A stretch of 49,360 nt of DNA from a virus, in IMG/VR virus record IMGVR_UViG_3300034198_006960, positions 1 to 49,360 of that record. One strand, written 5' to 3'. Both the position numbers and the translations under genes were made by a program. Shown here piece after piece: positions 3,998 through 18,998 of the stretch; the stretch's first letter is position 1, and each line of letters begins with the position of its first letter. The notes under the pieces were generated by a model. It made no database searches. It saw only the letters and a list, made by a program, of their open reading frames with translations, and was not told where the DNA came from.

Positions 3998-4010
3998 CAG
4001 AAAAAACTGC

Positions 4011-4038: not shown

Positions 4039-4063
4039 GACCACACAAAGCAAGGAGCTACCA

Positions 4064-4504: not shown

Positions 4505-4515
4505 GAGAAATTATT

Positions 4516-4925: not shown

Positions 4926-5009
4926 TGGAACTAATTGGGCTCTTTAGGCTTATGCCAGTAACATAATGTCTGTACAACAAGTTTTACATTTACATGAGGA
5001 AAAGTCATC

Positions 5010-5234
5010 ATGTCATATACAGTGGAAATTTCACAAGAAACTGCAGACTGTGTTCACATTGCAGTGTTGAAGTCCAGCTTACAGGGTCTGCGCATGGATA
5101 TTTCTAACTTGCAATACAGAACTGACCTTAAGGATTATGAGATGGAAGATCTTGCAAACTTTATACAGCTGGAGCAAGCATTCACCACAGTGATCAGATA
5201 TTATACCACTCCGGATATGTGGCATCTGATCTAA
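5010..5234 (+). CDS. Unknown small helical protein
   Basis: ATG 5010 follows TGAGGAAAA, a good binding site. The 74-residue product is predicted mostly helical (VLKSSLQGLRMDISNLQY, then MEDLANFIQLEQAFTTVIRYY) with a heptad-like spacing that suits dimerisation. It overlaps the likely translated start region of the next gene. Function unknown. Confidence 0.65.
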   Translation: MSYTVEISQETADCVHIAVLKSSLQGLRMDISNLQYRTDLKDYEMEDLANFIQLEQAFTTVIRYYTTPDMWHLI

Positions 5235-5242
5235 ATACCAAC

Positions 5243-5857
5243 ATGGACATAGTGGAATATAATGTGATTGGTAGCAGTGTGCGGCTGGATGAAATTCCTC
5301 CGCACTTGAGAAAGATGAAACTTTTGGGCCGAGGGGCCACCACTCTGGCCTTTGAAAAAGATGCAAGCACTGTGGTGCTGTTCACCAGGGACCCAATCAA
5401 GCTGGATTGGTTGGGTCATGGATTACGCATGGTGCATGATTATCACATCATCAATCCTGTGAAAGGTCATCACATCAGAGGCATGAGCAACCAACCCTTG
5501 TATCAGGTCACCATGCCCAAACTGTATCCTTTGAACGCAGCCAATCGCAAGCTGGTAACAGATGAGATGCGCAAGTTCACTCAGATCACACAGAAGGTGG
5601 GACTAAACACACATGCCAAACACACTTGGCCGCAGAAGCTCAACCAGGTGATTGATGCATACACCACTCAACATCCTCACAGTGTGGTTTTACCCCTGTT
5701 GGAATGGCTCATGAATTATGACCCTGACCAGTTTTACATGGACATGGGTGCCAGGCAGTTCAAGCAATCACTCAATGGTGACCTGGTGCTGCTGGATCCT
5801 GTGGTTAGTAAAGAGCTCTTGGACTTACTCAGATCAAAGTTTGCAGCCTACAAGTGA
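5243..5857 (+). CDS. Protein-kinase-like fold protein
   Basis: Start taken at ATG 5243 (204 residues); a GTG at 5219 in frame is possible but would overlap the gene before. The layout resembles a compact protein kinase: a glycine-rich loop LLGRGATTLAFEK at 27-39, strand TVVLF at 43-47, a hinge-like stretch YQVTMPKLYPL at 87-97, a catalytic-loop-like YMDMGARQF at 165-173 and LLDPV at 183-187 in place of DFG. D167 and D185 could be the catalytic and metal-binding Asp. The usual Asn five residues after the catalytic Asp is replaced by Gln, and no clear VAIK Lys is seen, so it may be a pseudokinase or a diverged small-molecule kinase. Its 3' end overlaps the convergent glycosyltransferase gene by 10 bases. 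Confidence 0.6.
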   Translation: MDIVEYNVIGSSVRLDEIPPHLRKMKLLGRGATTLAFEKDASTVVLFTRDPIKLDWLGHGLRMVHDYHIINPVKGHHIRGMSNQPLYQVTMPKLYPLNAANRKLVTDEMRKFTQITQKVGLNTHAKHTWPQKLNQVIDAYTTQHPHSVVLPLLEWLMNYDPDQFYMDMGARQFKQSLNGDLVLLDPVVSKELLDLLRSKFAAYK

Positions 5858-6573
5858 ATATCTGGTAGATAATTTGCATCATGACACATGTCATGAAAGT
5901 TTGTTTGTTCACAGTCTGCATACGCTGTGCCTCCACCTCGTTGTTCTACAGCCAGTACAGGATACACACAAGCAGTTTTGCCTTGTTTTGTGATAATCCA
6001 GTCTGCATTATATGTGGAATTTGTTTCCAACACCTGCGTGCCCCATCCAGTATCATGACCATACATGCTGACCAGCCATTCTGCATGGGATCTTTTCATC
6101 ACATACATTTGAGTACCATACACATTGAATGGGTAGTCATGTAATGTGAAAACCTGGTTCACTTGAGAATACTTTGACTCAATATGATGCAGGGGATAAG
6201 GCGTCAAATACCCCAACATGCACAAGTCCAGTTTACATAACTCAAAATCTATCATGATTTTGGGTAATTGGTCATCTATGTCACGACGGATCAAGATGTC
6301 ATCCTCCATGCACATCACATACGGGGCTGTGCCCTCCTGCACATAAGTTTCCAACATGGCCATGTGACCTTGCATCACACTCCATGCATGTGGATCCCAT
6401 CTGTTACGGTCGAGGGCTTGTGAAATTTGAGCTGGTGTGGGAGCCCTCACACTAAGTGCAACATCCACACCTTCCCACATTCTCACATGCCATCCCAATT
6501 GTGCAAACTTGTGCATCATGTGCAGTCTTTTCTGAGGATTTTTATATGTGAGGCAGAATTTGTCTATGTGCAT
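5848..6573 (-). CDS. Glycosyltransferase family 25 (LPS-type)
   Basis: The 241 residues match the GT25 layout: a start MHIDKFCLTYKNPQKRLHMM (family proteins begin with a strand and then N..R...M), WSVMQGHMAML at 64-74, and the metal/nucleotide-sugar motif MEDDILI at 89-95. GT25 enzymes add hexoses to lipooligosaccharide in Gram-negative bacteria. A tyrosine-rich middle and a TGWGTQVLE segment near 175 are typical of the acceptor side. It lies downstream of the DUF454 gene on the same strand with a 46-base gap, suggesting co-transcription. Together with the sugar transferase at 2905 it suggests alteration of host surface glycans or glycosylation of phage material. Confidence 0.88.
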   Translation of the reverse strand: MHIDKFCLTYKNPQKRLHMMHKFAQLGWHVRMWEGVDVALSVRAPTPAQISQALDRNRWDPHAWSVMQGHMAMLETYVQEGTAPYVMCMEDDILIRRDIDDQLPKIMIDFELCKLDLCMLGYLTPYPLHHIESKYSQVNQVFTLHDYPFNVYGTQMYVMKRSHAEWLVSMYGHDTGWGTQVLETNSTYNADWIITKQGKTACVYPVLAVEQRGGGTAYADCEQTNFHDMCHDANYLPDIHL

Positions 6574-6619
6574 GTTGTGAATAGCCTATACTTCATGCGC
6601 ATGCACAGTCAATATGGGT

Positions 6620-7036
6620 TTAAAACCAACCCAGCTTTTTACCTGTGTGCACACGGGCATCAGCCTCTTCAGGTGTGTGGGGAAACCTCCAAGCCCAAAT
6701 TGCAACCAGAAGCATGATCAACCCCATGCCCACAACCAACCAAAAGTTGCCTGTGGTCATCCACAATGTGATCAGGCTTATGTCCATGGTGATCACCATC
6801 ATCCACTTGGCTCTGCGAGGTACCACTCTCTTCTCCTGCCAGTTGCGCAGGAAAGGACCAAACAGCTTGTGGTTCATGATCCAGTCGTGCCATCTTTTGT
6901 TGCTCTTGGCAAAGCAGAAGGCTGCTGCCACAGCAGGTGTGCTCCAGGGTATGCCAGGGGTCACGATGCCAATATATGATATTCCCAAACAGATCATACC
7001 CAGCATAAACCAAAGAGTCTTTTTAAACTTTTCCAT
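6620..7036 (-). CDS. DUF454 (YbaN-like) inner-membrane protein
   Basis: The 138-residue protein carries the clear DUF454 signature: GIVTPGIPWSTP at 23-34, AAFCFAKSNKRWHDWIMNH at 38-56, FGPFLRNW at 59-66 and PRRAKW at 73-78, with hydrophobic segments at about 8-26, 78-94 and 98-116. The start is taken at ATG 7036 because the family begins just before the first membrane helix; an earlier in-frame ATG at 7099 would add 21 atypical residues. No strong binding site is visible. The biochemical role of DUF454 is not established; in bacteria it is an inner-membrane protein. Its place upstream of the GT25 gene suggests an envelope-directed pair. Confidence 0.85.
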   Translation of the reverse strand: MEKFKKTLWFMLGMICLGISYIGIVTPGIPWSTPAVAAAFCFAKSNKRWHDWIMNHKLFGPFLRNWQEKRVVPRRAKWMMVITMDISLITLWMTTGNFWLVVGMGLIMLLVAIWAWRFPHTPEEADARVHTGKKLGWF

Positions 7037-7139
7037 GCGATATTTATGTGAAAACACAACGCTAGATGCGATTGACTCCTGTGAGTGCCGCTGGTGCAAA
7101 TGCTGTGATTAACACTTGGTCATAATCTCACATTATGCC

Positions 7140-7167
7140 TTGACATGATGGTCTAATGTGCTATCAT
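7140..7167 (+). promoter_or_regulatory. Strong extended -10 promoter
   Basis: TTGACA (7140-7145), a 16-base spacer, TG-C-TATCAT (7162-7167), upstream of the RNA ligase gene. Confidence 0.85.
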
Positions 7168-7195
7168 ACAGCATAAGATAAGGATCGTGAACAAT

Positions 7196-8473
7196 ATGAG
7201 CACTTTTTCGTGTCCGCTGGTGCGTGTGGCGTCTGTACAGGATCACGTCAATGCGGATCGTCTTTCCATTGTCAAGCTGGAAGGGTTGGGCTTCGTGTGT
7301 ATTTCTGCCAAGCTGGCAGATGGCACTCCTCGCTACAAGACGGGCGACTGGGTGGTTTACATTCCCAGCGCCGCCATTCTGCCGGAATACCTGCTCAAGG
7401 AAATGGACTTCTGGAATGCCGAAACTCGCAAGGGTATGCTGGCAGGCAGCAATGGTGATCGGGTAAAGCCTCTCCGGCTGCGAGGTATTTTTAGTGAGGG
7501 GTTGCTGTATCCAGCATCAGTCACTGTGAATGACAACACAGAGATGATGCCCGAAGGTTATCTGCGCCGCTACTGGCAAGTGGCCCTAGGAGAAAGCGAT
7601 GGCGAGCTTTTGATGCGCATCGTGCGGCTCATGCCCGTGAACAAGTTGGAGGCTGTGGAGAGTATTGCCGGGCGCGATATGAGCGAACGTCTGGGCATCA
7701 CCAAGTGGGAGCCCACCATCCCTGCTGCCATGGCGGGAGAGGTGGCCAACATGATGGAACATCTCATCAAGTATGATTTTGAGCGTATGGAACGGTGTCC
7801 TAACATGTTTGAACTGGGCGAGCAGGTGACTGCCACAGAAAAACTTCATGGTACCAACATGTGCATCACTTGGGTGCCTGACATCACACATGAGGAAATG
7901 TTCGGCACACAGGGCAACATCCTGGTGAGCAGCAAAGGCCTGGGTGCTAGTGGCCTAGCATTCAAGAACAACGATGCAAACGCTCACAACCTGTATGTGC
8001 GCACCCTGCGTGATCTACTCTCAAATGGATTTGAGCAGAAGTTGGTGAGCCTTGTGGGCATGCTTACCCAACCCAAGCAGTTGGAGATCACAACTGCACT
8101 GCCTGTGCGAATTTGGGGAGAGGTTTTTGGTCAGGGTGTGCAGGACTTGCATTACAGCACCACCAAGCCAGAGTTTGCAGTGTTTGATGTGTGCATTGGT
8201 GAACGGTGGCTCACAGATGCAGAACTTGCACAGGCTTGTGTGCATCTGGGAGTAAACAAGGTGCCGCTAGCCTACAAGGGGCCGTTTGATTTGGCAGCTC
8301 TGGAGGCTGTGCGAGATGGTGCAACCATGCTGGGTGGTGCCAACATGCGAGAAGGTATTGTGGTGCGCAGCGAGAATCTGGAACCACATGCCCTCCATGG
8401 TCGCCGCATTGCAAAATTCATTAGCCCCGACTACCTGACACGCAAGAGTAAGAATCAGACAGAATTCAATTAA
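7196..8473 (+). CDS. RNA ligase, Rnl5/DRB0094-like
   Basis: The 425-residue protein has the two-part layout of the Deinococcus DRB0094 RNA ligase group: an N-terminal domain (about 1-160) likely to be OB-fold-like and a C-terminal nucleotidyltransferase domain. Motif I is TEKLHGTNM with the adenylated Lys at about 216. Motif III is FAVFDV, motif IV EGIVVRS and motif V AKFISPDYL, all in order. It seals 3'-OH/5'-phosphate RNA ends using ATP. AAGGA lies 11 bases before ATG 7196; a GTG at 7187 is too close to that site. The gene stands alone behind a strong promoter and its codons are richer in G/C at third positions than the structural genes. With the second ligase at 15405 and the end-healing protein at 22497 it suggests RNA repair. 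Confidence 0.92.
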   Translation: MSTFSCPLVRVASVQDHVNADRLSIVKLEGLGFVCISAKLADGTPRYKTGDWVVYIPSAAILPEYLLKEMDFWNAETRKGMLAGSNGDRVKPLRLRGIFSEGLLYPASVTVNDNTEMMPEGYLRRYWQVALGESDGELLMRIVRLMPVNKLEAVESIAGRDMSERLGITKWEPTIPAAMAGEVANMMEHLIKYDFERMERCPNMFELGEQVTATEKLHGTNMCITWVPDITHEEMFGTQGNILVSSKGLGASGLAFKNNDANAHNLYVRTLRDLLSNGFEQKLVSLVGMLTQPKQLEITTALPVRIWGEVFGQGVQDLHYSTTKPEFAVFDVCIGERWLTDAELAQACVHLGVNKVPLAYKGPFDLAALEAVRDGATMLGGANMREGIVVRSENLEPHALHGRRIAKFISPDYLTRKSKNQTEFN

Positions 8474-8477
8474 CCAG

Positions 8478-8492
8478 TTGTGATGATCACAA
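8478..8492. promoter_or_regulatory. Palindrome next to the Nudix promoter
   Basis: TTGTGAT-G-ATCACAA is a perfect inverted repeat with one central base. It lies directly between the ligase stop and the -35 of the next promoter. It could be an operator or a weak transcription stop; a TG-rich background makes chance possible. Confidence 0.35.
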
Positions 8493-8495
8493 TAT

Positions 8496-8523
8496 TTGAC
8501 TTATGTGCACCCTAGATTAAACT
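8496..8523 (+). promoter_or_regulatory. Probable promoter
   Basis: TTGACT (8496-8501), a 16-base spacer and TAAACT (8518-8523, 4 of 6). It keeps the spacing of the stronger promoters but has a weaker -10 without TGn. It would drive the Nudix gene and the four genes after it. Confidence 0.5.
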
Positions 8524-8546
8524 TAATCGTATGGAAACACATTACG

Positions 8547-8996
8547 ATGAGTAAAAAAATCAGTGCAGGTATAGTGATCACAGACGGTGATCATGTGTTA
8601 GTGGGTCATGTGACCAATCATAGACATTGGGATATTCCCAAGGGTGGTATAAACCAGGGTGAACCACCTTTGCAAGCTGCAATTAGGGAGTGTATGGAGG
8701 AAACAGGCATTCAAGTGCCTGTTTCTGAGTTGCAAGTTTTGGGCATGTATGCATATAAACCCAAAAAGGATCTCATGTTGTATTTGTGGTGTGTGAAACA
8801 AATGCCTGACGCAACCACACTCAAATGCGATAGCAAATTCACAAACACTAAAGGCATCCAGCAGCCCGAACTGGATGCATTTGCATGTGTGAAATGGGAA
8901 CAGATTTCGGAATATTGTCAGCCTGACTTGGTAAAAGTCTTAAAAATATTGGAGAAAAAAGCACGTGACACAGCTAAAAAACACTCCCTCACATGA
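8547..8996 (+). CDS. Nudix hydrolase
   Basis: A complete Nudix box fits GX5EX7REXXEEXGU exactly: G33, E39, R47, E48, E51, E52, G54 and I55. Nudix enzymes hydrolyse nucleoside diphosphates linked to another group, such as oxidised nucleotides, ADP-sugars, dinucleoside polyphosphates or capped RNA ends. The start ATG 8547 (149 residues) places the first strand KKISAGIVI where the family begins; the preceding bases give a short leader from the promoter at 8496. The substrate cannot be predicted. In this context, cleaning of nucleotide pools or of RNA 5' ends is plausible. The 3' end overlaps the next gene by 32 bases. Confidence 0.92.
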   Translation: MSKKISAGIVITDGDHVLVGHVTNHRHWDIPKGGINQGEPPLQAAIRECMEETGIQVPVSELQVLGMYAYKPKKDLMLYLWCVKQMPDATTLKCDSKFTNTKGIQQPELDAFACVKWEQISEYCQPDLVKVLKILEKKARDTAKKHSLT

Positions 8997-9231
8997 AGAA
9001 CTTCATGCAGCCCTACAAACCAATGTGGTGTGTGTGAACTTCAGGAAGGCAGATGGGTCTGTGAGACACATGAAGGCCACTCTGCAAGAGCATTGTTTGC
9101 CAGAGTTCCGCTCAGAACAACCACGCATGGAAAAGAGTAGTCAAGTATTCCGTGTATGGGACCTGGAGAAGCAAGCATGGCGCAGCTTCAGGACAGACAG
9201 ACTGGAGTCATGGGAAATCCAAATCCCATGA
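8965..9231 (+). CDS. SH3-like beta-barrel small protein (DUF2693-type)
   Basis: An 88-residue frame starts at GTG 8965, with GGAG ten bases upstream inside the Nudix gene. The pattern VVCVNFRKADGSVRHMKATL, then LPEF, then QVFRVWDLEKQAWRSF and LESWEI matches small phage SH3-like proteins of the DUF2693 type, which appear in many large phages and read as a compact beta barrel. Their role is not established; nucleic-acid binding or transcription modulation has been suggested by fold only. It overlaps the next gene by ATGA. Confidence 0.75.
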   Translation: MTQLKNTPSHEELHAALQTNVVCVNFRKADGSVRHMKATLQEHCLPEFRSEQPRMEKSSQVFRVWDLEKQAWRSFRTDRLESWEIQIP

Positions 9232-9578
9232 CTGATTACACAAATGAAGATTACCTAACACCCACAAAGGTTAGTTACTGCATCACTGCACCAGAAGAGG
9301 GGTGGCCCATGGTGGATCAGATTCCTGATCAGCTAACGCCCATTTTGCGCCCTATTGCAGAAACGTTAGCCATGCTGGATGGGAATGCATTCTTTAGTGC
9401 AAAGAATGATTGGTACACACAGTATCTACCTGAGGCATTTGTGTTGTTCATGGACAATGGCGGAACATTGGGTTGGGCTGGGCAAGCATGTTGGGTCACA
9501 GATCTCAATCATGAGAATGCAGAAGTGGCCCAAGCATATGAAAACTGGCGCATGTTGAAAAAGTTATATCGACCATGA
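9228..9578 (+). CDS. Unknown protein, 116 residues
   Basis: ATG 9228 overlaps the previous TGA. The product is acidic and aromatic-rich (EEGWPMVDQIPDQLTPI in the N-terminal half, FVLFMDNGGTLGWAGQACW in the second). The second half looks like two short strands with a Gly-rich turn. It ends in an ATGA overlap with the following gene, so the four genes from 8547 to 9823 form a coupled unit. No family is recognised. Confidence 0.65.
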   Translation: MTDYTNEDYLTPTKVSYCITAPEEGWPMVDQIPDQLTPILRPIAETLAMLDGNAFFSAKNDWYTQYLPEAFVLFMDNGGTLGWAGQACWVTDLNHENAEVAQAYENWRMLKKLYRP

Positions 9579-9823
9579 ATGAAATGTTTGAAGACAGCTT
9601 GAATGCCTTACACAAGAATTCAGGGTTTCATGTGGACCTACTGCTGACTGATGCATGTGTTCAAGAGTATTATGAACAACGACAAGCACTCTTTAAAGCT
9701 AAATCTCAAGCCGTACAAGATGCTATTGCACTGATTGAACAAAAATATCAAGTGGATTTATGGCAGCTTGAGCAAGAGTATGCAGTGTATGTGAGCATGA
9801 TCACACCTCAAAAGGATGCCTAA
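9575..9823 (+). CDS. Small coiled-coil protein, unknown
   Basis: Starts by an ATGA overlap. The 82-residue product is almost entirely helical, with charged and Gln-rich repeats (YYEQRQALFKAKSQAVQDAI, IEQKYQVDLWQLEQEYAVY) that fit a coiled coil of about 45 residues. Probably a dimeric accessory protein. Function unknown. Confidence 0.65.
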   Translation: MNEMFEDSLNALHKNSGFHVDLLLTDACVQEYYEQRQALFKAKSQAVQDAIALIEQKYQVDLWQLEQEYAVYVSMITPQKDA

Positions 9824-9826
9824 CAC

Positions 9827-10978
9827 ATGGCAGAAGTCAGAACAATTATCCCAGAAAAACTTTATGTGGGTCTGGGTCATCAATCACGCACCAGCCATCC
9901 GCTAGCTGCCCTAACCGCGTGGGGAACTGATGCTGCAAGTAAGAACAGGATGCAAACTGTACAGAGTCACAGCAAACAAACCTGGTGCATGGATAATTCC
10001 CCTCAGTGGGGCATTCGTATTGCAGGTGCAAGTTACAAAGATGAACTGTTCATTCAGGACCCCAGGGGATTCAGTGTGAGTGCGGGCACCGCTAATGTGC
10101 TGTGGCTCATGAAAACATGCACTGTTGTGGATGGTGTGATTCAAGCCCCATGTGTGTGGGCCAGAGTGAGTGGACGAAATACATTACTTGTGGTAGGCTC
10201 CCAAGCTCATGACCTAGCCATCATCCAGACTCGTGTGGCCAATAGCAAAGTGAGCATAAAACAAGTCAGACTGGGAGATTGGATCACACTACAGAATGGC
10301 ACGCAAGGTGTATATATGGGTAAATTCCACACCCTCATGTTTGATACAACCATGGGGTGGCGTTCAAACCAAGCCATGGAGAACCGATTGAGTGTGGATG
10401 GTGCCACTAAAACAGTGTTATGGCAACCTAATGTGAAGCGTGCATGGATGCCCAAGCATTACCAAACTCTAATGTTTTTGAGTAATCCCACTGTGGCTGA
10501 ACACACACCGCATGATCATGTTTACACAGATGTTCAAGCTGAGCTCAAGGTTAATGAACTTTTAAATGATGCAACTTGTGATGTATCTCGCAACCTTAGG
10601 GGCTATAATTATGGCAGGGTATTGTATGCCACACGCAAGGTGCCTGAGTTGGATAAGTTGATCATCCAGCCAGAATCCACTGTGTGCATGACTGCAGATG
10701 AAGCAAGTGCAATGCCATATAAAATGCATTACAGTGAGAATGGCATAGATTTTTGGATGTGGGGCAGCACAACTCGTAATGGTGTGGTCAACTTGTTGGA
10801 ATGGGACAAAGTTGCGTTGAACCAAAACCAGCTTAGAGTGCGGACCACAAAAAAAACGTCAGGTTTTCATGAGAATAATACTAAAATTTTAGATGTTAAT
10901 CAAGTGTTGGGTAATCTGTATGTGATGAAATCCACTTATGTGAGCAGTCTGGGTAACAAGCTGGAAGCCTGTATCTAA
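9827..10978 (+). CDS. Unknown protein, 383 residues
   Basis: ATG 9827 follows the previous stop by three bases, suggesting coupling. The sequence is beta-rich: strands in AVVDGVIQAPCVWARVSGR-type segments and a KOW/SH3-like stretch (VRLGDWITLQNGTQGVYMG near 162-180). There are no membrane segments and no catalytic motif that I recognise. The upstream partners are small early-type proteins, but a virion or nucleic-acid-binding role cannot be excluded. The gene is clearly coding by length and composition; the function is unknown. Confidence 0.7.
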   Translation: MAEVRTIIPEKLYVGLGHQSRTSHPLAALTAWGTDAASKNRMQTVQSHSKQTWCMDNSPQWGIRIAGASYKDELFIQDPRGFSVSAGTANVLWLMKTCTVVDGVIQAPCVWARVSGRNTLLVVGSQAHDLAIIQTRVANSKVSIKQVRLGDWITLQNGTQGVYMGKFHTLMFDTTMGWRSNQAMENRLSVDGATKTVLWQPNVKRAWMPKHYQTLMFLSNPTVAEHTPHDHVYTDVQAELKVNELLNDATCDVSRNLRGYNYGRVLYATRKVPELDKLIIQPESTVCMTADEASAMPYKMHYSENGIDFWMWGSTTRNGVVNLLEWDKVALNQNQLRVRTTKKTSGFHENNTKILDVNQVLGNLYVMKSTYVSSLGNKLEACI

Positions 10979-11175
10979 CCTCTGCGAACAGTCCAACCAA
11001 GCAGGTAGCACCTTTAGTCCTTTGTTTGTGATGTTGATGGATGATTAAAAGGGTGTGGTATTGGGTATTTGTACAGCTACCTGTATGGGTACAGGTGATT
11101 GGATGGTAGTAATGGGAGCTAGAGTCATAGCAGGTATTGGTGGGGGGTATGCGTGAGTATGTCAGCAGAAAGTTG

Positions 11176-11203
11176 TTGACAAACGCATCAAACATGCTAT
11201 CAT
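11176..11203 (+). promoter_or_regulatory. Strong extended -10 promoter
   Basis: TTGACA (11176-11181), a 16-base spacer, TG-C-TATCAT (11198-11203). The 197 bases before it (10979-11175) hold no convincing gene, only two overlapping tiny frames (one of 22 codons starting MIKRVWYWVFV). Confidence 0.85.
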
Positions 11204-11228
11204 GCACATACAGAACAAGGAACCCATC

Positions 11229-11603
11229 ATGCTGTCAGATGATGTCAAGGTGTTGCAAACTGCTGGCCACCAGCCTGCTGCAAGGGTGTTTGCAGATCTG
11301 CGCGAAAATCAGGCACATGCTCTGCATACACATGCAGACTTCTTTCAGAGTTTTGTGCACCAGGACAAGGTCACACAAGTTAAACAAATTGTGGAAGCTT
11401 TCTTCAAGGTGCGCAAGGGCATTTATGTGAACCGTCGTGCTAACCGGGGTCAGCCCTTCACTGTGATCAAGGTGGACAATCCGCAATTCCCACGCATGAG
11501 TGCAAAGCAGATTGACGCCCAGTATCGTGGACCGCTCAAGGCCCTGGGCGTGGAAATTATCTTTTCAAAGGCCAGTGATTCATACTTATACAGGATCAAA
11601 TGA
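11229..11603 (+). CDS. Unknown small early protein, 124 residues
   Basis: ATG 11229 lies 6 bases after AAGGAA and about 26 bases after the -10 of its promoter. The product has a His-rich helical N-terminal half (RENQAHALHTHADFF) and a basic middle (VRKGIYVNRRANRGQPFTVI near 61-80), followed by a strand-rich end (ALGVEIIFSKASDSYLYRIK). The basic, Gly/Arg-containing segment suggests nucleic-acid binding. No family is recognised. The downstream gene at 11662 lacks its own evident promoter and may be read from the same transcript. Confidence 0.7.
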   Translation: MLSDDVKVLQTAGHQPAARVFADLRENQAHALHTHADFFQSFVHQDKVTQVKQIVEAFFKVRKGIYVNRRANRGQPFTVIKVDNPQFPRMSAKQIDAQYRGPLKALGVEIIFSKASDSYLYRIK

Positions 11604-11661
11604 TGCACTGTGTTCAAAATACGTGCTGCATGATCCATATGTTTGATCGGAATTAGATCAC

Positions 11662-11916
11662 ATGTTACCTGGTATTTCTTGGCATGCACTTTTGCCTTAT
11701 GAGGTTGTGCTTGGTAATAGTTACTGGAGTAAACACAATATGATTTTGGAATGGCTCAACACGCACATGTCACCAGGTGTGCGAATGAAAGGGTTGATAC
11801 CCCAGGATCCCAACCATATACATGTGCGTTATGCACATGATCACTTTTATAATTATATTATTTTGCGTTTTAAAGATCATTCAGACATGTTGCGTTTTCA
11901 GTTGTCATGGTGTTAA
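11662..11916 (+). CDS. Small unknown protein, FxLSW family, intact copy
   Basis: This 84-residue protein aligns over its full length with the interrupted frame at 13220-13471: YEVVLGNSYWSK with HEIMLNSKYYTK, ILEWLNTHM with MFSWLLVHV, and ILRFKDHSDMLRFQLSWC with VIRFANPAHLIKFQLSWS. Its C-terminus also matches the partial gene at the window start. It is mixed alpha/beta, basic to neutral, with no motif I recognise. The 68 bases right after its coding end are duplicated after the second copy. Upstream, only a weak GGA precedes the ATG, so translation may be low. Function unknown. Confidence 0.7.
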   Translation: MLPGISWHALLPYEVVLGNSYWSKHNMILEWLNTHMSPGVRMKGLIPQDPNHIHVRYAHDHFYNYIILRFKDHSDMLRFQLSWC

Positions 11917-11979
11917 TAGCATTAGGTCTGGCTTAAAGTAATAACATGAGAAACAAGTTGTTGACAACCAGTACACACA
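11912..11979 (+). repeat. Direct repeat, copy A, with a damaged promoter
   Basis: These 68 bases match 13467-13534 without gaps and with 6 differences by my count. The repeat runs from the stop codon of the paralogous gene through a TTGACA at 11961-11966. In this copy the sequence after the repeat diverges, and CATAGG stands where copy B has the -10 TATCAT, so the promoter is probably inactive here. Confidence 0.8.
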
Positions 11980-12072
11980 AGCCATAGGGCTATTACACAT
12001 GTTAAATACTGGCATACATGAGATAAAATTGGTTTTGTGCCAGAATCTCACCAACCACATAAGGAAATCACT

Positions 12073-13134
12073 ATGGATGCAACTTTTTTCCGCAAATATG
12101 CCGACATCATTCAGGCTGCTCACACAAGTCCTCTGCAAGAAGCAGATGATGCACCTGTGAGTCAAGCAGAACTCACCAATCTGTATAAGCAGGGCAAACC
12201 TGTTCACTTTGTAAAGAACACTCCAGTTGCGCTGGTGCCCTTCCAACAGCTGGAAAAATTGGTGGGAGATCAGGCAGCTGACAAGATCAAACAGCTAGCA
12301 GGTGCTGTGGACAAGACCTCATATGACCAAGCCTACAAAGATAATGGTTATGTGGTGTTCCAGTGGAACAGCAAGGACAATTCACCAGATATCTATATAG
12401 CCAATCCAAATGTGGTCAAGAGCAAATATGTGAAGTTCATGGGTCAACTGCCCTCAGATGCCAAAAGCCGCAGCAAGATCCCCAGCTTGGTGGTCATGCA
12501 ACATTTGAAGGTGGATCCCAGCCGCATGCCCTTTTATGTGAAAGTGGTTCCTGTGGAGATGGTGCATGTGGATGATTTGGGACTTGCAAACAAGACCATT
12601 CAAACCAATTGGGGAGAACAAACAGTTCAAGCAGGTGGATACTTGGTGCGTGAGGAAAATGGCCACATCTACACAGTGGCTCCAGATGCTCAAGGTTTAC
12701 CCATAGGTTATGTGAAGGCTGGAATTAATGAATCCACAACAGGCACAGGCAATCCTTTTGATTTACCTGCCCGTGATCCTTTTTGGCTTTATATGGTCGC
12801 TGATGTGCGGCAGACTAAAGAGGGCGCATTTACTATGGATATTATCTTCCGGGAAGGGTTTAATAGCAATCCATACAAGATGGGAGAAGTGGTTTATACT
12901 AGCAACGCTAGCCAACCCAGCCTATCAGGGAAGTTATCAAGGTGGGTTAACAGGCAAAAACAAGAGCATGATATCCACATAACAGATCCAAATCATCCCT
13001 TGATGAAAATAGTGCAAAAAGCAGTTGAAAGTTATATGGATAGCAAGGCAGCAAGTAAAAACAGTCTATCGTCTATCTCTAATAAGCCAAATAATCCCAA
13101 TTACGATCCAAATGATTTTAGTAACAGAAAATAA
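12073..13134 (+). CDS. Unknown protein, 353 residues
   Basis: ATG 12073 follows AAGGAAATC; upstream in-frame codons lack a binding site. The N-terminus MDATFFRKYADIIQAAH resembles the helix at the start of several marine phage structural proteins, which is only a hint. The middle contains QAGGYLVREENGHIYTVAP, similar to the small PGDYG-type domain. The C-terminal tail (about the last 40 residues) is low complexity, rich in Ser, Asn, Pro and Asp. There is no clear promoter beyond a GTTAAATA element at 12001-12008 that loosely resembles a late promoter. The gene sits between the two copies of the FxLSW family and the repeat. Function unknown; a virion role is possible. Confidence 0.65.
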   Translation: MDATFFRKYADIIQAAHTSPLQEADDAPVSQAELTNLYKQGKPVHFVKNTPVALVPFQQLEKLVGDQAADKIKQLAGAVDKTSYDQAYKDNGYVVFQWNSKDNSPDIYIANPNVVKSKYVKFMGQLPSDAKSRSKIPSLVVMQHLKVDPSRMPFYVKVVPVEMVHVDDLGLANKTIQTNWGEQTVQAGGYLVREENGHIYTVAPDAQGLPIGYVKAGINESTTGTGNPFDLPARDPFWLYMVADVRQTKEGAFTMDIIFREGFNSNPYKMGEVVYTSNASQPSLSGKLSRWVNRQKQEHDIHITDPNHPLMKIVQKAVESYMDSKAASKNSLSSISNKPNNPNYDPNDFSNRK

Positions 13135-13164
13135 ATGCGCCTGGACTTAAGGTCCGCCTCAATG

Positions 13165-13192
13165 TTGACATTATATGAAACTCCAATAACAT
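13165..13192 (+). promoter_or_regulatory. Promoter candidate overlapping a hairpin
   Basis: TTGACA (13165-13170), a 16-base spacer and TAACAT (13187-13192). The -10 is part of the left arm of the inverted repeat at 13180-13213. The predicted transcription start is near 13199, in the loop. Confidence 0.5.
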
Positions 13193-13213
13193 AGTAAAAC
13201 ATGTTATTGGAGT
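13180..13213 (+). promoter_or_regulatory. Inverted repeat covering a ribosome binding site
   Basis: A perfect 13-bp stem (13180-13192 with 13201-13213) has an 8-base loop. The right arm holds GGAG (13209-13212), the binding site of the frame at 13220. RNA read through from upstream would hide the site; RNA started at about 13199 would lack the left arm. No T tract follows, so it is not a terminator on plus. Confidence 0.7.
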
Positions 13214-13219
13214 GCCAAC

Positions 13220-13471
13220 ATGCCTGATTTAGAGAGCCCGTTCAAACATCTCACACACGAGATCATGCTGAACAGCAAATATTATACCAAGAGTTCTCAA
13301 ATGTTCTCCTGGCTGCTGGTGCATGTGGGATCTGGTCATGCCTATGATTATACCACACCCAGGTAAGATTACTCACAACCCGTATGGCATGCATATCAAT
13401 TATTTGGTAACATTGTGATCAGATTTGCAAACCCAGCACATCTGATCAAATTCCAATTGAGCTGGAGTTAA
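13220..13471 (+). pseudogene. FxLSW family paralogue interrupted by an in-frame TAA
   Basis: ATG 13220 has GGAG seven bases upstream. The frame runs 48 codons to TAA at 13364-13366 and then continues in the same frame for 34 codons to TAA at 13469-13471. Both halves align with the intact protein at 11662-11916, and the total length (83 codons) nearly equals its 84. So a single nonsense codon splits an otherwise full-length paralogue. The truncated 48-residue product may still be made. TAA, TGA and TAG all end other genes here, so a changed genetic code is not indicated. Read-through, an assembly error, or true decay are the options; decay is simplest. Confidence 0.75.
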
Positions 13472-13534
13472 TAGCATTGTGCCTGGCTTAATGTGATAAC
13501 ATGAGAAACAAGTTGTTGACAACCAATACACACA
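13467..13534 (+). repeat. Direct repeat, copy B, with an intact promoter
   Basis: Matches 11912-11979 without gaps (6 differences). It follows the interrupted paralogue as copy A follows the intact one, so gene and downstream promoter were duplicated as one unit. Confidence 0.8.
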
Positions 13535-13543
13535 TGTTATCAT
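13516..13543 (+). promoter_or_regulatory. Strong extended -10 promoter
   Basis: TTGACA (13516-13521), a 16-base spacer, TG-T-TATCAT (13538-13543). The -35 is inside repeat copy B. Confidence 0.85.
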
Positions 13544-13564
13544 TTGTAATAAAGGACAGTTAGC

Positions 13565-13774
13565 ATGAACCAGCACTGTAAAAGTTGTGTGCATCATCAT
13601 GATGCAGGTCACACCCAGACTGCTCCCGCCCATATGCGCAAATATAACGACTGGTGCTGCAAGTTGGGCAAGCATGCGCCCATGAGTGTGGGTCATTGCA
13701 AGCTCATGAATCTCAAGAGCACTACTGATTCTGCTGGAATAAAGTGGTTGACAATCAGATCCACCATGCTATAA
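13565..13774 (+). CDS. Small Cys/His-rich protein, possible zinc binding
   Basis: ATG 13565 follows AAAGGACAGTTAGC, a good binding site behind the promoter at 13516. The 69-residue product has C5 and C8 (CKSC), a His cluster HHHDAGH at 10-16, CC at 31-32 and an HC pair near 44-45. These could hold one or two metal ions. The last dozen codons overlap the next gene's promoter, and the stop TAA lies within its TATAAT. No known family is recognised. Probably an early protein. Confidence 0.65.
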   Translation: MNQHCKSCVHHHDAGHTQTAPAHMRKYNDWCCKLGKHAPMSVGHCKLMNLKSTTDSAGIKWLTIRSTML

Positions 13775-13775
13775 T
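13748..13775 (+). promoter_or_regulatory. Strong extended -10 promoter, inside the preceding gene's end
   Basis: TTGACA (13748-13753), a 16-base spacer, TG-C-TATAAT (13770-13775). It shares the block TGCTATAATGCACACATAAC with the promoters at 14802 and 15353. Confidence 0.9.
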
Positions 13776-13800
13776 GCACACATAACACAGAGGATCACAC

Positions 13801-14034
13801 ATGTTCAATTCAAACCCACGTGGTAATAAACTCCAGGAGAGTGACTTTGATCGTAGCTTTCGCCGCACAGGCATGTTCATGAAGTTGGCATTTGTGTTGA
13901 TCGCTACACTGGTACTTGTTACCATGACTACAGGTGCATATATGGGCATCACTTGCTACACCAGTGGGGACCCCAACCACATGGCCTGCTTCATGATCAG
14001 CGACCGTGTGGAAGTGGGTGTGCGTGCTCGGTAA
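13801..14034 (+). CDS. Small single-span membrane protein
   Basis: ATG 13801 lies behind AGAGGATCACAC and a strong promoter. The 77-residue product has a polar basic N-terminus (about 1-24, with FDRSFRRTG), one transmembrane helix (about 26-49, MFMKLAFVLIATLVLVTMTT) and a C-terminal part with two Cys (ITCYTSGDPNHMACFM) that would lie in the periplasm by the positive-inside rule and could form a disulfide. Early expression of such a protein suggests action at the host membrane, for example exclusion of other phages; this is inference. Confidence 0.7.
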   Translation: MFNSNPRGNKLQESDFDRSFRRTGMFMKLAFVLIATLVLVTMTTGAYMGITCYTSGDPNHMACFMISDRVEVGVRAR

Positions 14035-14042
14035 AATAGTGG

Positions 14043-14070
14043 TTGACATGCTCCCTGATCATGCTATAAT
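14043..14070 (+). promoter_or_regulatory. Strong extended -10 promoter
   Basis: TTGACA (14043-14048), a 16-base spacer, TG-C-TATAAT (14065-14070). It begins nine bases after the stop of the membrane-protein gene. Confidence 0.9.
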
Positions 14071-14096
14071 GCACCCGTAAAGGAACGAAACCACCC

Positions 14097-14798
14097 ATGT
14101 CAAAGATCGCAGTAAATCATAAACCTGCTCTAGAGGCATCTAAGGCTGAGCAACACAAGATGGCTCTAGCAGCCCTGGATATGCTACCTGCAGCTGAGAA
14201 GAATAAACTGCTGGTGGAAGCATCTCAGCTCAAATCCCGTCCAGCCACAGTCAAGGACACCAAGCACTTGTGGAAAAAGTGCAAGGGTGGTTACCACAGT
14301 ATTACAAGGGAGGCATACCATATTGCTGTTATAAATCAATGGACTGTGCAAGCATTGATATTGGCTGATGGTTATCGAACTGAAACATTTAGTGTGGGAG
14401 ACCATGTTGCATTCTGCTCCTTTGAGCTTGACGCATGGCATACCCATAACCTGGGCCATGCATTGGGTTATGGATTCAGTGTGATATCACAGATCAAATC
14501 AAACGGTAATATTGTGTTGGAAAACTCTCTAGAATTCTCGCGTCAAGGTAGACAGGTGGACGGGCCCAATGGACTGATCCTTTATGAATTTGTTATCAAT
14601 AGTCCGCTCCTTAAAGAAGGACCTCGTGAAGGTTATATTATTAATAATAACATGTACGTGGTGTATGTGCCTGATGGTGATAACCAAAACTGCAACACCA
14701 CACATCAAGATCCTAGAGTTGTTGATTTACAGTGTGACACTGTTACAGATGAATGGGCAGATAAGATCTCCATCATTTCACAAGTCAGCTATAATTAA
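14097..14798 (+). CDS. Unknown early protein, 233 residues
   Basis: ATG 14097 follows AAAGGAACG and its own strong promoter. The N-terminal 60 residues are helical and charged (KAEQHKMALAALDMLPAAEK). The rest is beta-rich with a run FSVGDHVAFCSFELDAWHTH near 99-118 and an acidic C-terminus. There are no membrane segments. The two parts differ in flavour: the first third uses G/C-rich codons like other early genes, the rest is more A/T-rich, which may reflect a domain fusion. No family is recognised. Confidence 0.65.
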   Translation: MSKIAVNHKPALEASKAEQHKMALAALDMLPAAEKNKLLVEASQLKSRPATVKDTKHLWKKCKGGYHSITREAYHIAVINQWTVQALILADGYRTETFSVGDHVAFCSFELDAWHTHNLGHALGYGFSVISQIKSNGNIVLENSLEFSRQGRQVDGPNGLILYEFVINSPLLKEGPREGYIINNNMYVVYVPDGDNQNCNTTHQDPRVVDLQCDTVTDEWADKISIISQVSYN

Positions 14799-14801
14799 CA
14801 G

Positions 14802-14829
14802 TTGACAACACATACAGTCATGCTATAAT
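14802..14829 (+). promoter_or_regulatory. Strong extended -10 promoter
   Basis: TTGACA (14802-14807), a 16-base spacer, TG-C-TATAAT (14824-14829), followed by the conserved GCACACATAAC. Confidence 0.9.
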
Positions 14830-14861
14830 GCACACATAACGGAACGCGATGGAGCACCAAA

Positions 14862-15356
14862 ATGGCAACCACCTTAGGTGAGAACAGTATTACAGGCGAT
14901 CAGATCCTCTTTGAGGACATAATAGGTCATGCCTATGAGAACTTCAAGAACATGGATGCTGGAGTGCTCCTGCGTAAAATGGTAGCAGACGGGGTGATCC
15001 AAATGGATGCACTGGTTGAAAAAGCCATCAGTGTCAAGGGCAAGCTCAAACGGCAAAGTGTGGAAGGTCGTGACTTTGTGGATGGATCAGATGCTAAAAA
15101 GGCATTGACTCAGCCTCTAATCGAAAAGTATTCGCACCGTCGCGTAGCCACAATCCGAAACATAGAGGGTAAGCATGGTGCTCTGCGAATCATTGTGGCC
15201 GAGACCTTGACGGGCAAGACATACTACTTCAAGGTTCCCAAGAACAAGTATAAGGGGTTGCGCTGCATCCGCATCTACTTTAATGCGGATGGTACACCCA
15301 AAGACGGCAAGTGGTTCCAGTATAGGTGCAGTACTTTTAAGCAACTTTGTGCTTGA
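14862..15356 (+). CDS. Unknown early protein, 164 residues
   Basis: ATG 14862 follows GATGGAGCACCAAA and a strong promoter. The N-terminal half is helical; the C-terminal half is beta-rich and basic (RRVATIRNIEGKHGALRIIV, then TGKTYYFKVPKNKYKGL). The alternation of strands with E/K pairs recalls small nucleases or nucleic-acid binders, but no catalytic motif is certain. The stop TGA (15354-15356) lies inside the -35 of the next promoter. No family is recognised. Confidence 0.65.
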   Translation: MATTLGENSITGDQILFEDIIGHAYENFKNMDAGVLLRKMVADGVIQMDALVEKAISVKGKLKRQSVEGRDFVDGSDAKKALTQPLIEKYSHRRVATIRNIEGKHGALRIIVAETLTGKTYYFKVPKNKYKGLRCIRIYFNADGTPKDGKWFQYRCSTFKQLCA

Positions 15357-15380
15357 CAGTGGGTCTAATCATGCTATAAT
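15353..15380 (+). promoter_or_regulatory. Strong extended -10 promoter overlapping a stop codon
   Basis: TTGACA (15353-15358) contains the TGA of the preceding gene. A 16-base spacer and TG-C-TATAAT (15375-15380) follow. Confidence 0.9.
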
Positions 15381-15404
15381 GCACACATAACAGGAGATAC
15401 CCAC

Positions 15405-16592
15405 ATGGTGTACAGCAACCGTATCGAGGATTATATGGAAGCCATTGCAGGCTGTGATGCATTCTTTGTGGCTGATCGCGACTATGGACGCATTATCAAC
15501 TATCGTCAGATGGGCAATGATGTGTTCCCTGATCCTGCTGTGGCTCCTGATGAGGCAACTGCTCGCCTGTGGGGCTTGCGCCGCCAGTGCCGTGGTATCA
15601 TATTTGACCTGGCAGGCAATGTGATCAGCCCTGGGTTTGAGAAGTTTTTTAATTTGGGTGAACGCACTGAGACTCTGCTGGAGAACATTCCGTTTGATGT
15701 GCCGCATGTGATCATGGAGAAGCTGGATGGCAGCCTGATTCGTCCTGTGCCCATGGCGGATGGTGGCTATCGTCTGGGCACCAAGATGGGTCTCACGGAT
15801 GTGGCTGCACAGCCTGAGGCTTGGCTGCGTGATCATGCAAACTATGATGGCATGATCAGGGACATGCTGGGTCAGGGTCTGGTGCCCCTGTTTGAGTGGT
15901 GCAGCCGCAAGCAGCGCATCGTGATTGACTACCCTGAAGACCGTCTAGTGCTGCTGGCTGTGCGTGATGTTCGCACGGGTGAATATCTGCCCTTGAACAT
16001 GATGCTGGAACTGGCTGTGGAGTATGGTGTGGAGGTGGTGCGTCGCTATGAGGGCACGCCTGACAGCATGCAGCATCTCATGGAGGAGACCCAGGGCATC
16101 CTGGACCAAGAAGGTTGGGTGGTGACCTGGCCCCATCTGCGAGTCAAGATCAAGGGCGAATCATATTTGCGTATTCATCGCACCAAGGAGAATCTTGTGC
16201 GCGAGAACAACGTGATTGAGATGATCCTTGACGAGGTTATAGATGATGTGAAGCCATTCCTTCACAAGGATGATTTACTGCGCCTGGAGTCTTATGAGAT
16301 TGCGTTCTGGCACGGTATCAATGCAACTGTTCACGCTTGGTCAGCCAAGCATAAGGCAGTGTGTGAGACGTATGGTGAAGATCGTAAGGCATTTGCTCTT
16401 GGTGAGGCATCCAACATGGATGGCTTCATGCGTGCTGCTCTATTCAAGGCTTGGGCAGATACACAGTTTGATTTTTATGAGTATTTGATTGATGTTCTGA
16501 AGAAGAGCATCAGCACCCAGACCAAGGTGGATGCTGCAAGGTACTTGTGGGGCGGTGTTACTTGGGCCCCACAGGAGATGTCAGATGACTGA
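15405..16592 (+). CDS. RNA ligase, T4 Rnl1-like
   Basis: The 395-residue protein has the T4 RNA ligase 1 layout: RQCRGIIFD at 60-68 (upstream motif of the family), motif I MEKLDGSLI with catalytic K106, then FEWCSRKQRIVIDYP (motif III region), EGWVV (motif IV) and VKIKGESYL (motif V), followed by a helical C-terminal domain. In T4 this enzyme rejoins tRNA cut in the anticodon loop by a host nuclease. AGGAG lies nine bases before the ATG, behind the promoter at 15353. The C-terminal third (about 260-395) is long enough to be the tRNA-specificity domain. Its 3' end overlaps the convergent GIY-YIG gene by 12 bases. Confidence 0.93.
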   Translation: MVYSNRIEDYMEAIAGCDAFFVADRDYGRIINYRQMGNDVFPDPAVAPDEATARLWGLRRQCRGIIFDLAGNVISPGFEKFFNLGERTETLLENIPFDVPHVIMEKLDGSLIRPVPMADGGYRLGTKMGLTDVAAQPEAWLRDHANYDGMIRDMLGQGLVPLFEWCSRKQRIVIDYPEDRLVLLAVRDVRTGEYLPLNMMLELAVEYGVEVVRRYEGTPDSMQHLMEETQGILDQEGWVVTWPHLRVKIKGESYLRIHRTKENLVRENNVIEMILDEVIDDVKPFLHKDDLLRLESYEIAFWHGINATVHAWSAKHKAVCETYGEDRKAFALGEASNMDGFMRAALFKAWADTQFDFYEYLIDVLKKSISTQTKVDAARYLWGGVTWAPQEMSDD

Positions 16593-17405
16593 ACAATGTT
16601 GGGCGAGAGAGAACATCTCGCCCAACTCTTCTTCTGAATAATATTTTTGTACTGTGAGGATGTTTAAGGAAGACACTCTTTCTTTTTTAGCCCTGTTTAA
16701 CAGCTCTGAAGTTATAGGCATCCTGTAATGCTCTATTATCTTCATTACTATTTTGGCAAATTTCTTCTTATTGCGTTTGTATATGGCTTCAGGAGTCTGA
16801 CATGCATTCATAGTTTGATTATAAGAGTTTTTAGCCTTTCTGGTAGCCACTCTTTTTGCTATAGCTTCATCTGACCATCCGTTATCAATAACATGTTGAG
16901 CCCCTTTTAATCCTGACTCTCTTGCAATGAGTTTGGCAGTAGGAGTTTGTGCATAATCTCTTAAGGACTGTTTTACTATTTCTGCCTTGTCTACCCCCAA
17001 TCTCTCGTGTAGAGGTCTGCGCTGTATAGCACTTATCCTTGATGACAGTTCTGGACCAGGATTGATGAACCCTTTACCACCGTCTGTCATGTTGGTGAGG
17101 GTACCTGTGCCCAAATCCAGTCTACCATATTGCTTAATGAGCTCCTGCTCTTTAGCATACGCAAGATCCGGATCTTGACTCTCAAATACTATCTCAACCA
17201 CGTATGCACCGCTAGATGCAATGATATCTCTAATTCTGGACAGCTTCCAATAATTGGGATGTTTTCCCAGTTTACGTTTGTTCATCCATGCATTATACTC
17301 TTTAAGGTGGGTATAGGGACGTTTAGGATTTTTGGCAAATCCAATATAATACGGTAAATTGACAAAAGGATCTACCAATTGGTAGACCAAATAGGTATGA
17401 CTCAT
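16581..17405 (-). CDS. GIY-YIG homing endonuclease
   Basis: The 274-residue protein begins with the GIY-YIG domain: YLVYQL at 5-10, PYYIGFAKNPKRPYTHLKE at 18-36 with the conserved Arg, KEQELIKQYGR with the catalytic Glu and LTNMTDGGKG with the conserved Asn. The rest is basic and helical and should be the DNA-recognition part. This resembles free-standing Seg-type enzymes of T4. AAGGAG precedes the ATG on the minus strand, and a perfect late element TATAAATA lies about 64 bases upstream. Its C-terminal residues EMFSLAQHC are encoded by the hairpin that ends the convergent RNA ligase transcript. No intron is evident. Confidence 0.92.
   Translation of the reverse strand: MSHTYLVYQLVDPFVNLPYYIGFAKNPKRPYTHLKEYNAWMNKRKLGKHPNYWKLSRIRDIIASSGAYVVEIVFESQDPDLAYAKEQELIKQYGRLDLGTGTLTNMTDGGKGFINPGPELSSRISAIQRRPLHERLGVDKAEIVKQSLRDYAQTPTAKLIARESGLKGAQHVIDNGWSDEAIAKRVATRKAKNSYNQTMNACQTPEAIYKRNKKKFAKIVMKIIEHYRMPITSELLNRAKKERVSSLNILTVQKYYSEEELGEMFSLAQHCSVI
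16598..16633 (+). terminator. Intrinsic terminator after the RNA ligase
   Basis: A perfect 11-bp stem (16598-16608 with 16616-16626) with a 7-base loop is followed by TCTTCTT. It lies six bases after the ligase stop and inside the last codons of the opposite-strand endonuclease gene. Confidence 0.75.
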
Positions 17406-17468
17406 GCTGAGTGCTCCTTATAAGCGTTTAGAGTGGGTGGGTGTTGGTAGCACCGCGATCCACAACTA

Positions 17469-17476
17469 TATTTATA
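17469..17476 (-). promoter_or_regulatory. T4-type late promoter for the endonuclease
   Basis: The minus strand reads TATAAATA, a perfect match to the T4 late element, about 64 bases before the endonuclease ATG. Confidence 0.65.
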
Positions 17477-17485
17477 CAAAGATAA

Positions 17486-17513
17486 TTGACGGAATACGAT
17501 CATATAGTAGTAT
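17486..17513 (+). promoter_or_regulatory. Probable promoter
   Basis: TTGACG (17486-17491), a 16-base spacer and TAGTAT (17508-17513). It is weaker than the others. It is back to back with the late element of the endonuclease and upstream of the gene at 17547. Confidence 0.45.
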
Positions 17514-17546
17514 GAGGTCATAAGATAGATCTGTGGGAGATGAGTG

Positions 17547-17951
17547 ATGACACAAAAGCAACGGTTGCTCACACATGACAGTGGATATCCTGCCCAAATG
17601 AGATACAACTGGGGGTATGCACCCTGGGTGATTGAGTCTTGGGCAAAACAAAGCAAAGAAACTGGTGCTGATAAGCGTGCAGCTATTATCAAGCAGAACA
17701 TCTTGCAGCACATTAAGAAGTCAAAAGAGAACAGGATCATGTCTGTCATACAAGAAGAATTCAACTACGTGGTGGCCAGGAAGTGGGCGCCAGATGACCC
17801 TATTACTGACTTGTGCATTTACACTTATGGACATCAAATACAAAAAGGCACCCTGGCAGATGCTCAAAGGTTTTTGGAATATGTGCAATCAGGTGCTGAT
17901 GAAAAGGAAGAGTATCACATTTACAAAGTATCTTATGAGAAATTAACATGA
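17547..17951 (+). CDS. Unknown protein, 134 residues
   Basis: ATG 17547 has GGGAG seven bases upstream; an adjacent GTG at 17544 is an alternative. The product is mixed helical and basic in the middle (KRAAIIKQNILQHIKKSKEN) and ends with strand-like EEYHIYKVSYEKLT. It is the first of four genes joined by ATGA overlaps up to 18998, which suggests they are made together. No family is recognised. Confidence 0.65.
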   Translation: MTQKQRLLTHDSGYPAQMRYNWGYAPWVIESWAKQSKETGADKRAAIIKQNILQHIKKSKENRIMSVIQEEFNYVVARKWAPDDPITDLCIYTYGHQIQKGTLADAQRFLEYVQSGADEKEEYHIYKVSYEKLT

Positions 17952-18421
17952 CAGAACATCCTACAAAAAACAAAGTGGCTCTTAAGCTAGAGCAGGCTGC
18001 TAAGAATTCGCCATATTCCCTGGAAAAAGACAATTACCAGATGGCTGTTGATGAGATCCGTAGGCTGCAACAGCTGGTGGATGCCTCGCATGAATGCCAA
18101 GCAAACAGGCAGGATGCTGCTGCATATTGTGAGAAATGTGGTAGACATTTGGGTGAAGGCCGTGGAAAATATGGACCCTACGTGAGGGAGGAGATACCCC
18201 CAATAACCACCGACGACATAGGGGCGCACGGAGACACCCACGGCGGGATATTCTGGGTTCGTGCCACGGACGGCGGCTGGCGATCTTCAACCCCGGGCGA
18301 GGCTTGTGACGAAATCAAGCGACTGCGGGCGGCGTTGAAAAATATATCCACGGGTCTTGCGGTTATGGCCCACAAGCCCAAACCTTCCGCAAAGCCCTCT
18401 CACGTGGAGGGGAAGTCATGA
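17948..18421 (+). CDS. Mosaic protein of unknown function with a foreign-looking 3' half
   Basis: The 157-residue product has a CxxC pair (AYCEKCGRHL near 60-69) that could bind zinc. It also has two copies of a similar helix: DEIRRLQQLVDA in the N-terminal half and DEIKRLRAALKNI in the C-terminal half. The coding DNA changes sharply near 18170: the first part has few CpG, as is usual here, and the second part (18175-18417) is dense in CpG and in G/C-ended codons. The second half probably came from a different genome by recombination within the gene. It is ATGA-linked on both sides. Function unknown. Confidence 0.65.
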   Translation: MTEHPTKNKVALKLEQAAKNSPYSLEKDNYQMAVDEIRRLQQLVDASHECQANRQDAAAYCEKCGRHLGEGRGKYGPYVREEIPPITTDDIGAHGDTHGGIFWVRATDGGWRSSTPGEACDEIKRLRAALKNISTGLAVMAHKPKPSAKPSHVEGKS

Positions 18422-18678
18422 GCCACACAGCAAAAGACCAAGCTGAGATAGTGAATACTCAGGATGTGGCAGATCTGGGCGAGACTGAAATCAAAGTGTA
18501 TGACGGTGTAATTTGGCATGCAGATGAATCTGATTCATGTGTGAGAATCTTCCGTGGACACATGCAGATCATCAAGGCACCCAAGCGAGACACTCCTTAT
18601 GAGGAATATTGGCCCACTCCAGAGCAACTCACATGGATGTTGCAAGTGCTCAACCAAGCGGAAATGTCTCGCTCATGA
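18418..18678 (+). CDS. Unknown protein, 86 residues
   Basis: Linked by ATGA to the genes on both sides. The product is acidic with a beta-rich core (EIKVYDGVIWHADESDSCVR, then MQIIKAPK) and a helical end (TPEQLTWMLQVLNQAEMS). Composition returns to the window's normal after the foreign-looking stretch. No family is recognised. Confidence 0.65.
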   Translation: MSHTAKDQAEIVNTQDVADLGETEIKVYDGVIWHADESDSCVRIFRGHMQIIKAPKRDTPYEEYWPTPEQLTWMLQVLNQAEMSRS

Positions 18679-18998
18679 GCAGTAAACATGACATGCACAC
18701 ACAATTTGAATCTGACTGGAGAGCCAGAATTACCAAATACACAACTTTATATCAACAACGCATGAATCATACATACTTGAACGCAGATCTTTTTGTGAAT
18801 CCAGTCACGAACCTCCAAGAGGAGAAGATCTCCGTCATGCAGGTGGAGATTGCAGAACCTGATCTGGATGCCATGATCAGACAACTAAAAGATGCAAATT
18901 GGCATGTACTTATTCAAAACAAATATCCTCACCTGCGTGCAGCTTACCTGGAATATCTCACACTTGTGCACATGACTGTGGATCAAGATTCATTTTGA
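18675..18998 (+). CDS. Unknown protein, 107 residues
   Basis: ATG 18675 overlaps the TGA before it. The product is helical, with a likely long helix FESDWRARITKYTTLYQQRM at 10-29 and a second half with alternating charged and hydrophobic residues. The stop TGA (18996-18998) is part of the -35 TTGACA of the next promoter. No family is recognised. Confidence 0.65.
   Translation: MSSKHDMHTQFESDWRARITKYTTLYQQRMNHTYLNADLFVNPVTNLQEEKISVMQVEIAEPDLDAMIRQLKDANWHVLIQNKYPHLRAAYLEYLTLVHMTVDQDSF

Follow-up and report, generated by a model that had tools for sequence, protein, structure and literature searches.

The DNA analysed here, referred to throughout as the window, is a viral record 49,360 bases long. 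At the locus of interest an upstream open reading frame (ORF) is followed on the same strand by a TTGACA hexamer, a hairpin that encloses a Shine-Dalgarno (SD) sequence, and a small interrupted ORF of which an intact paralogue lies further upstream (Table 1).

Table 1. Coordinates of the features at and around the hairpin, with the basis of each assignment
Feature	Position	Strand	Basis or remark
Intact 84-aa paralogue of ORF 13220	11662..11916	+	without such a hairpin
Upstream 365-aa ORF	12037..13134	+	transcripts would read into the hairpin; no family match
-35 hexamer TTGACA	13165..13170	+	sequence; 16 nt 5' of a TAnnnT hexamer
Left arm (anti-SD arm) ACTCCAATAACAT	13180..13192	+	mechanical repeat search and direct reading
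Predicted -10 TAACAT, weak, no TGn, within left arm	13187..13192	+	sequence
Loop agtaaaac, 8 nt	13193..13200	+	predicted transcription start at about 13199, from a 6-nt discriminator after the -10
Right arm ATGTTATTGGAGT, holds the SD	13201..13213	+	mechanical repeat search
SD GGAG	13209..13212	+	7 nt 5' of the ATG at 13220
48-codon ORF	13220..13366	+	TAA at 13364-13366; frame runs on to 13468 as 83 codons

Hairpin and predicted promoter upstream of ORF 13220

The two arms of the hairpin are complementary at 13 of 13 positions, and the folding energy of 13180-13213 is -16.0 kcal/mol. An earlier note on this DNA had described a perfect 13-bp stem with GGAG in its right arm ahead of the ATG at 13220, and this description is correct to the base. 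Folding of the read-through RNA gave an unpaired probability of 0.00 for the SD, which is thus fully paired. For native RNA starting at 13199 the corresponding value was 0.27-0.97, and with starts from 13196 to 13201 GGAG is mostly free. In native RNA the first two G residues of GGAG still pair in part with bases around the start, which counts against the masking model. Perfect stems of at least 9 bp that cover the SD in front of an ORF occur four times in the window compared with 0.075 times per shuffled window, and no such stem of at least 11 bp was obtained in 40 shuffled windows. A search with the Rfam 15 structured RNA families gave no match at the gathering score anywhere in the window, and an exact search of viral contigs for the 13180-13213 hairpin found no other copy.

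The arrangement TTGACA-N16-TAACAT places the predicted +1 at 13199, confirming the layout given in the earlier note, in which TAACAT follows a 16-base spacer and lies within the left arm. TAACAT matches TATAAT at four of six positions, and the two hexamers together match consensus at 10 of 12. The -10 is weak: the TGn present on nearly all other promoters of the phage is absent here, and a profile built from the phage's own promoters scored the 13165 site poorly, ranking it 3897th. The T4-type late promoter TATAAATA was not found near 13165-13200. The predicted inner promoter at 13165-13192 is a weak sigma70-type site and not one of the late class.

About 15 TTGACA-N16-TATAAT promoters are present in the window, at 1721-18995 and 46881-47416 and all on the + strand. 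Most carry TGC or TGT before the -10 and a GCACACATAA-like sequence after it. At the promoter at 3595, a perfect 13-bp palindrome (3602-3633) spans the -10, and the predicted start coincides with the ATG at 3629, so that the message may be leaderless. A GIY-YIG homing endonuclease gene (16584-17405, - strand) has a T4-late-like TATAAATA upstream at 17476.

Other SD hairpins were also seen. One of 11 bp (25154-25191) lies over the SD of ORF 25197 and is identical in the related contigs G003 and G004. A 14-nt hairpin with a single mismatch (25584-25619) masks the start of thyX and is kept in the same two contigs. In the distant relatives L013, L017 and L018 a different hairpin (CAGTATCTA / TAGATATTGGAG and variants) lies over the thyX SD, and its changes are one-sided and pair-keeping only. 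No sigma70-like promoter was found in 25154-25191 or 25584-25619, and for that reason these are ribosome-site hairpins of another sort. The earlier claim that three genes share one layout therefore holds for a hairpin at the ribosome site and fails for a promoter inside it, which among the three is predicted only at 13180-13213.

The interrupted gene and its variable segment

When ORF 13220 is read past its stop codon it is 30% identical to the diverged 84-aa paralogue, and the TAA at 13364 breaks the frame; the designation "interrupted paralogue" in the earlier note is thus justified. An intact 83-aa homologue with 69% identity is found at L003:5001-5249. The dN/dS of the frame was 0.32 before the stop and 0.24 after it. 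Since constraint is similar on either side of the TAA, the interruption is recent, is a sequencing error, or is tolerated. The product matches no Pfam or PHROG family, and its predicted fold gave no convincing PDB match, only uncharacterised phage proteins being matched. No intrinsic terminator was found on the + strand from 12037 to 13220, which makes read-through from upstream plausible.

Direct repeats of about 78 bp (11896-11973 and 13451-13528) bound a segment consisting of the 365-aa ORF, the hairpin and the interrupted paralogue. In the nearest relative, G004, which is 98-99% identical around the segment, the first paralogue is joined directly to position 13451 across these repeats, and at the first repeat G003 carries different DNA. 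The hairpin is absent from both of these nearest relatives and from the intact homologue in L003. Because it is unique to this contig, evidence must come from other genes. With the frame cut by a stop codon in this genome, the hairpin may today act on no more than a 48-aa fragment or a gene in decay.

A search for relatives via the upstream ORF (12037-13134) gave one close contig, and one via ORF 14097 gave none. No close phage DNA was found in GenBank. The best GenBank phage matches of the baseplate protein are the giant phages Atu_ph07, Phosso, fENko-Kae01 and GAP32, and the best match of the window's ThyX is Atu_ph07.

Recurrence of the layout in related and cultured phages

In the window and nine related contigs, all TTGACA-like/TATAAT-like promoters followed by an SD and a start codon were gathered, and 154 were left after removal of near-copies. 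The stretch from -35 to +1 was compared with its own SD leader for perfect complementarity, and promoters swapped among leaders served as the control. Perfect matches of at least 9 bp were found for 4 of the 154 promoters, whereas swapping predicts 0.08 (permutation p<1e-4); leaving out the case in the window gives three against 0.09. The four cases are 13220 of the window, G008 178184, and G011 258595 and 62889. The proteins encoded at these loci show no relation to each other, and the layout thus recurs at unrelated genes of related phages. Among these 154 promoters no case was found when the stem had to lie outside the SD, nor when either of the two 28-nt stretches preceding the -35 was used instead. 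At G011 62889 the promoter is of full consensus and the left arm directly follows TTGACA. G008:178184 and G010:5021 are orthologous leaders (proteins 69% identical) in which a 10-bp stem is kept while the loop has diverged.

The more distant contigs G012-G014 gave 0 cases among 32 promoters, too few to provide more than little power. Over the whole set, promoter-leader pairing energies did not differ significantly between own and swapped pairs; consequently, any excess is the tail of a few promoters and not a trend. A second, weak case in the window, at 46935, was dropped because it is not kept in G004. Pairing of the spacer with the first 28 nt of the ORF gave one pair of at least 10 bp (p=0.04), which was judged to be noise.

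The test had been framed after the window's case was known, and it was run with the procedure unchanged on cultured phages: GAP32 (whole), fENko-Kae01 (360 kb) and Atu_ph07 (first 400 kb), with 117 promoters. Four matches of at least 8 bp were found compared with 0.34 expected (p=0.0003), and two of at least 10 bp compared with 0.04; the upstream control gave zero, and the excess was not significant when G-U pairs were allowed. Scanned regardless of promoter, Atu_ph07 has 12 SD hairpins as opposed to 0-1 in shuffles. The earlier note had proposed a genome-wide scan for repeats that hold the binding site, and such repeats are enriched both here and in the window. In nine of the 12 hairpins a -35-like hexamer (TTGA, no more than one mismatch) lies at a distance that places the start in the loop. 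For 35 non-redundant hairpins from all phages, exact TTGACA or TTGACT stands at that distance in 13; the rate at other gene starts of these genomes, taken with identical geometry, predicts 5.2 (p=0.0007). This strict definition, with real gene starts as the control, replaced a looser definition of the -35 that had given a control rate of 21% (p=0.003).

The Atu_ph07 leaders 178035, 179532 and 311914 have the promoter frame and the loop in common, and their stems differ by two compensatory double changes; pairing within this leader family has thus been kept by compensatory change. A leader family of Atu_ph07 (MF403008.1) at 71992, 178059, 179558 and 311939 shows TTGACAttattttt..TATAAC and the loop TCGAAACG with differing SD stems. 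The window has a single clear case; most other genomes have one or two, and Atu_ph07 has up to nine. The device is not "general", contrary to the earlier suggestion: few genes use the layout, which was seen at 4 of the 154 promoters first collected and, as a clear case, only once within the window.

Interpretation and known systems

We believe that the locus is probably a translational insulator acting at the RNA level, like those of T4 gene e and I-TevI but with an inner promoter predicted to be sigma70-type. In a message reading through from 12037-13134 and beyond, the 13-bp hairpin would form and GGAG would be paired, and ribosomes could then not start the small gene. The left arm contains the -10 of the gene's own promoter and some of its spacer, so a message from this promoter would start in the loop near 13199; lacking the left arm, that message would be open to ribosomes. 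Translation of the small gene would on this view depend on its own promoter alone. That this promoter is active, where it starts, and that read-through and repression take place are predictions from sequence. Masking of the SD together with a start in the loop, as the earlier note had it, is supported by geometry, by folding apart from the partial pairing in native RNA, and by recurrence beyond the swapped and shifted controls.

The same layout could act as a timing switch, in which the inner promoter fires later than upstream ones, leaving the gene silent early and open late, as for T4 lysozyme. It equals that of T4 e, I-TevI and mobE, whose inner promoter is late (PMC3014915, PMC2988022), and the -10 is unlike those of the phage's common promoters, making another class conceivable. 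Against this, the phage's promoters ordinarily have TTGACA and a 16-nt spacer, TATAAATA occurs three times in the window, about the expectation from base composition, and the cases in relatives have plain TTGACA/TATAAT-like promoters. We regard such a switch as unlikely, and the "timing" of the earlier note goes beyond these results: the inner promoter, being weak and sigma70-type like the phage's other promoters, indicates no change in time, and expression from the own promoter only is the safer and simpler reading. A DNA operator, with a protein dimer on the 34-bp palindrome over the -10 and start repressing the promoter, perhaps by autoregulation, is rather improbable. Perfect symmetry spanning -10 to +15, the overlap of the 3602-3633 palindrome with a promoter, and the ability of phage homing enzymes to repress their own promoters (PMC2988022) would fit it. 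However, the half-site is not repeated in the window (seven matches within two mismatches, 6.7 expected), arms at other genes share nothing beyond the anti-SD core, and enrichment around promoters is limited to SD-covering stems. These results disfavor the operator put forward as an alternative in the earlier note, though the palindrome may be a single autoregulatory site.

It is also quite doubtful that the hairpin is a relic with no present role, having arisen as a perfect inverted duplication when template switching or recombination affected a variable segment beside a decaying gene. Such an origin would suit a segment that is present in this contig between 78-bp direct repeats and absent from the nearest relative, and a gene with a premature stop, but it does not account for a stem that pairs without mismatch precisely at the SD and has a suitably spaced -35, or for recurrence at other genes. 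Least credible is an intrinsic terminator of the upstream gene that overlaps the next ribosome site by chance. Several Atu_ph07 look-alikes are followed by T-runs, and the hairpin there may also stop transcription; the stem at 13180-13213 is followed by GCCAACATG, without a T-run, which excludes a terminator at this site, and the terminator scan omits it.

Beyond the single locus, we suggest, more tentatively than for the insulator itself, that promoter-embedded anti-SD arms could be a recurrent and independently evolved form of insulation in Atu_ph07/GAP32-type jumbo phages, the window holding a recent instance. If so, selected small genes of these phages would be translated only from their own sigma70-type promoters, and stems would arise gene by gene under a constant promoter frame. 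This would be a general means of tying a gene to its own promoter where genomes are packed with read-through transcription.

The masked lysozyme start of T4 is a textbook case, linked to late promoters and to a small number of genes. In the transposase leaders of IS10/Tn10 and IS200, folding of messages that enter from outside promoters conceals the transposase start. Those leaders guard a mobile element against outside promoters, whereas no transposase is present at 13220. In T4 gene e (lysozyme) a hairpin masks the SD on long transcripts, and promoters in the 5' arm give messages without that arm (PMC3014915). The SDs of I-TevI, I-TevII, I-TevIII, segB and Aeh1 mobE are masked in longer transcripts and unmasked by way of a proximal promoter (PMC2988022). 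Insulation of this kind is established or presumed for T4 gene e, I-TevI, segB and Aeh1 mobE, the best-studied cases having late promoters (PMC3014915, PMC2988022). Like gene e, the 13220 leader hides the SD in a hairpin with a predicted promoter in the 5' arm; unlike that lysozyme gene with its late promoters, it has a sigma70-type site and precedes an uncharacterised interrupted gene. With the I-TevI/segB/mobE group it shares an SD predicted to be masked in longer transcripts and a predicted proximal promoter, although those genes encode homing endonucleases and the 13220 gene matches no family. Closest in design are the Atu_ph07 leaders 178035, 179532, 311914, 104252 and others, which likewise have TTGACA, a left arm over or beside the -10, the SD in the right arm and a start predicted in the loop. 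They differ from 13220 in their genes and stem sequences, and in that several have the T-run after the stem and could also terminate. The T4-like trick would thus be found here with ordinary promoters, at different genes and in several giant phages, cultured ones included.
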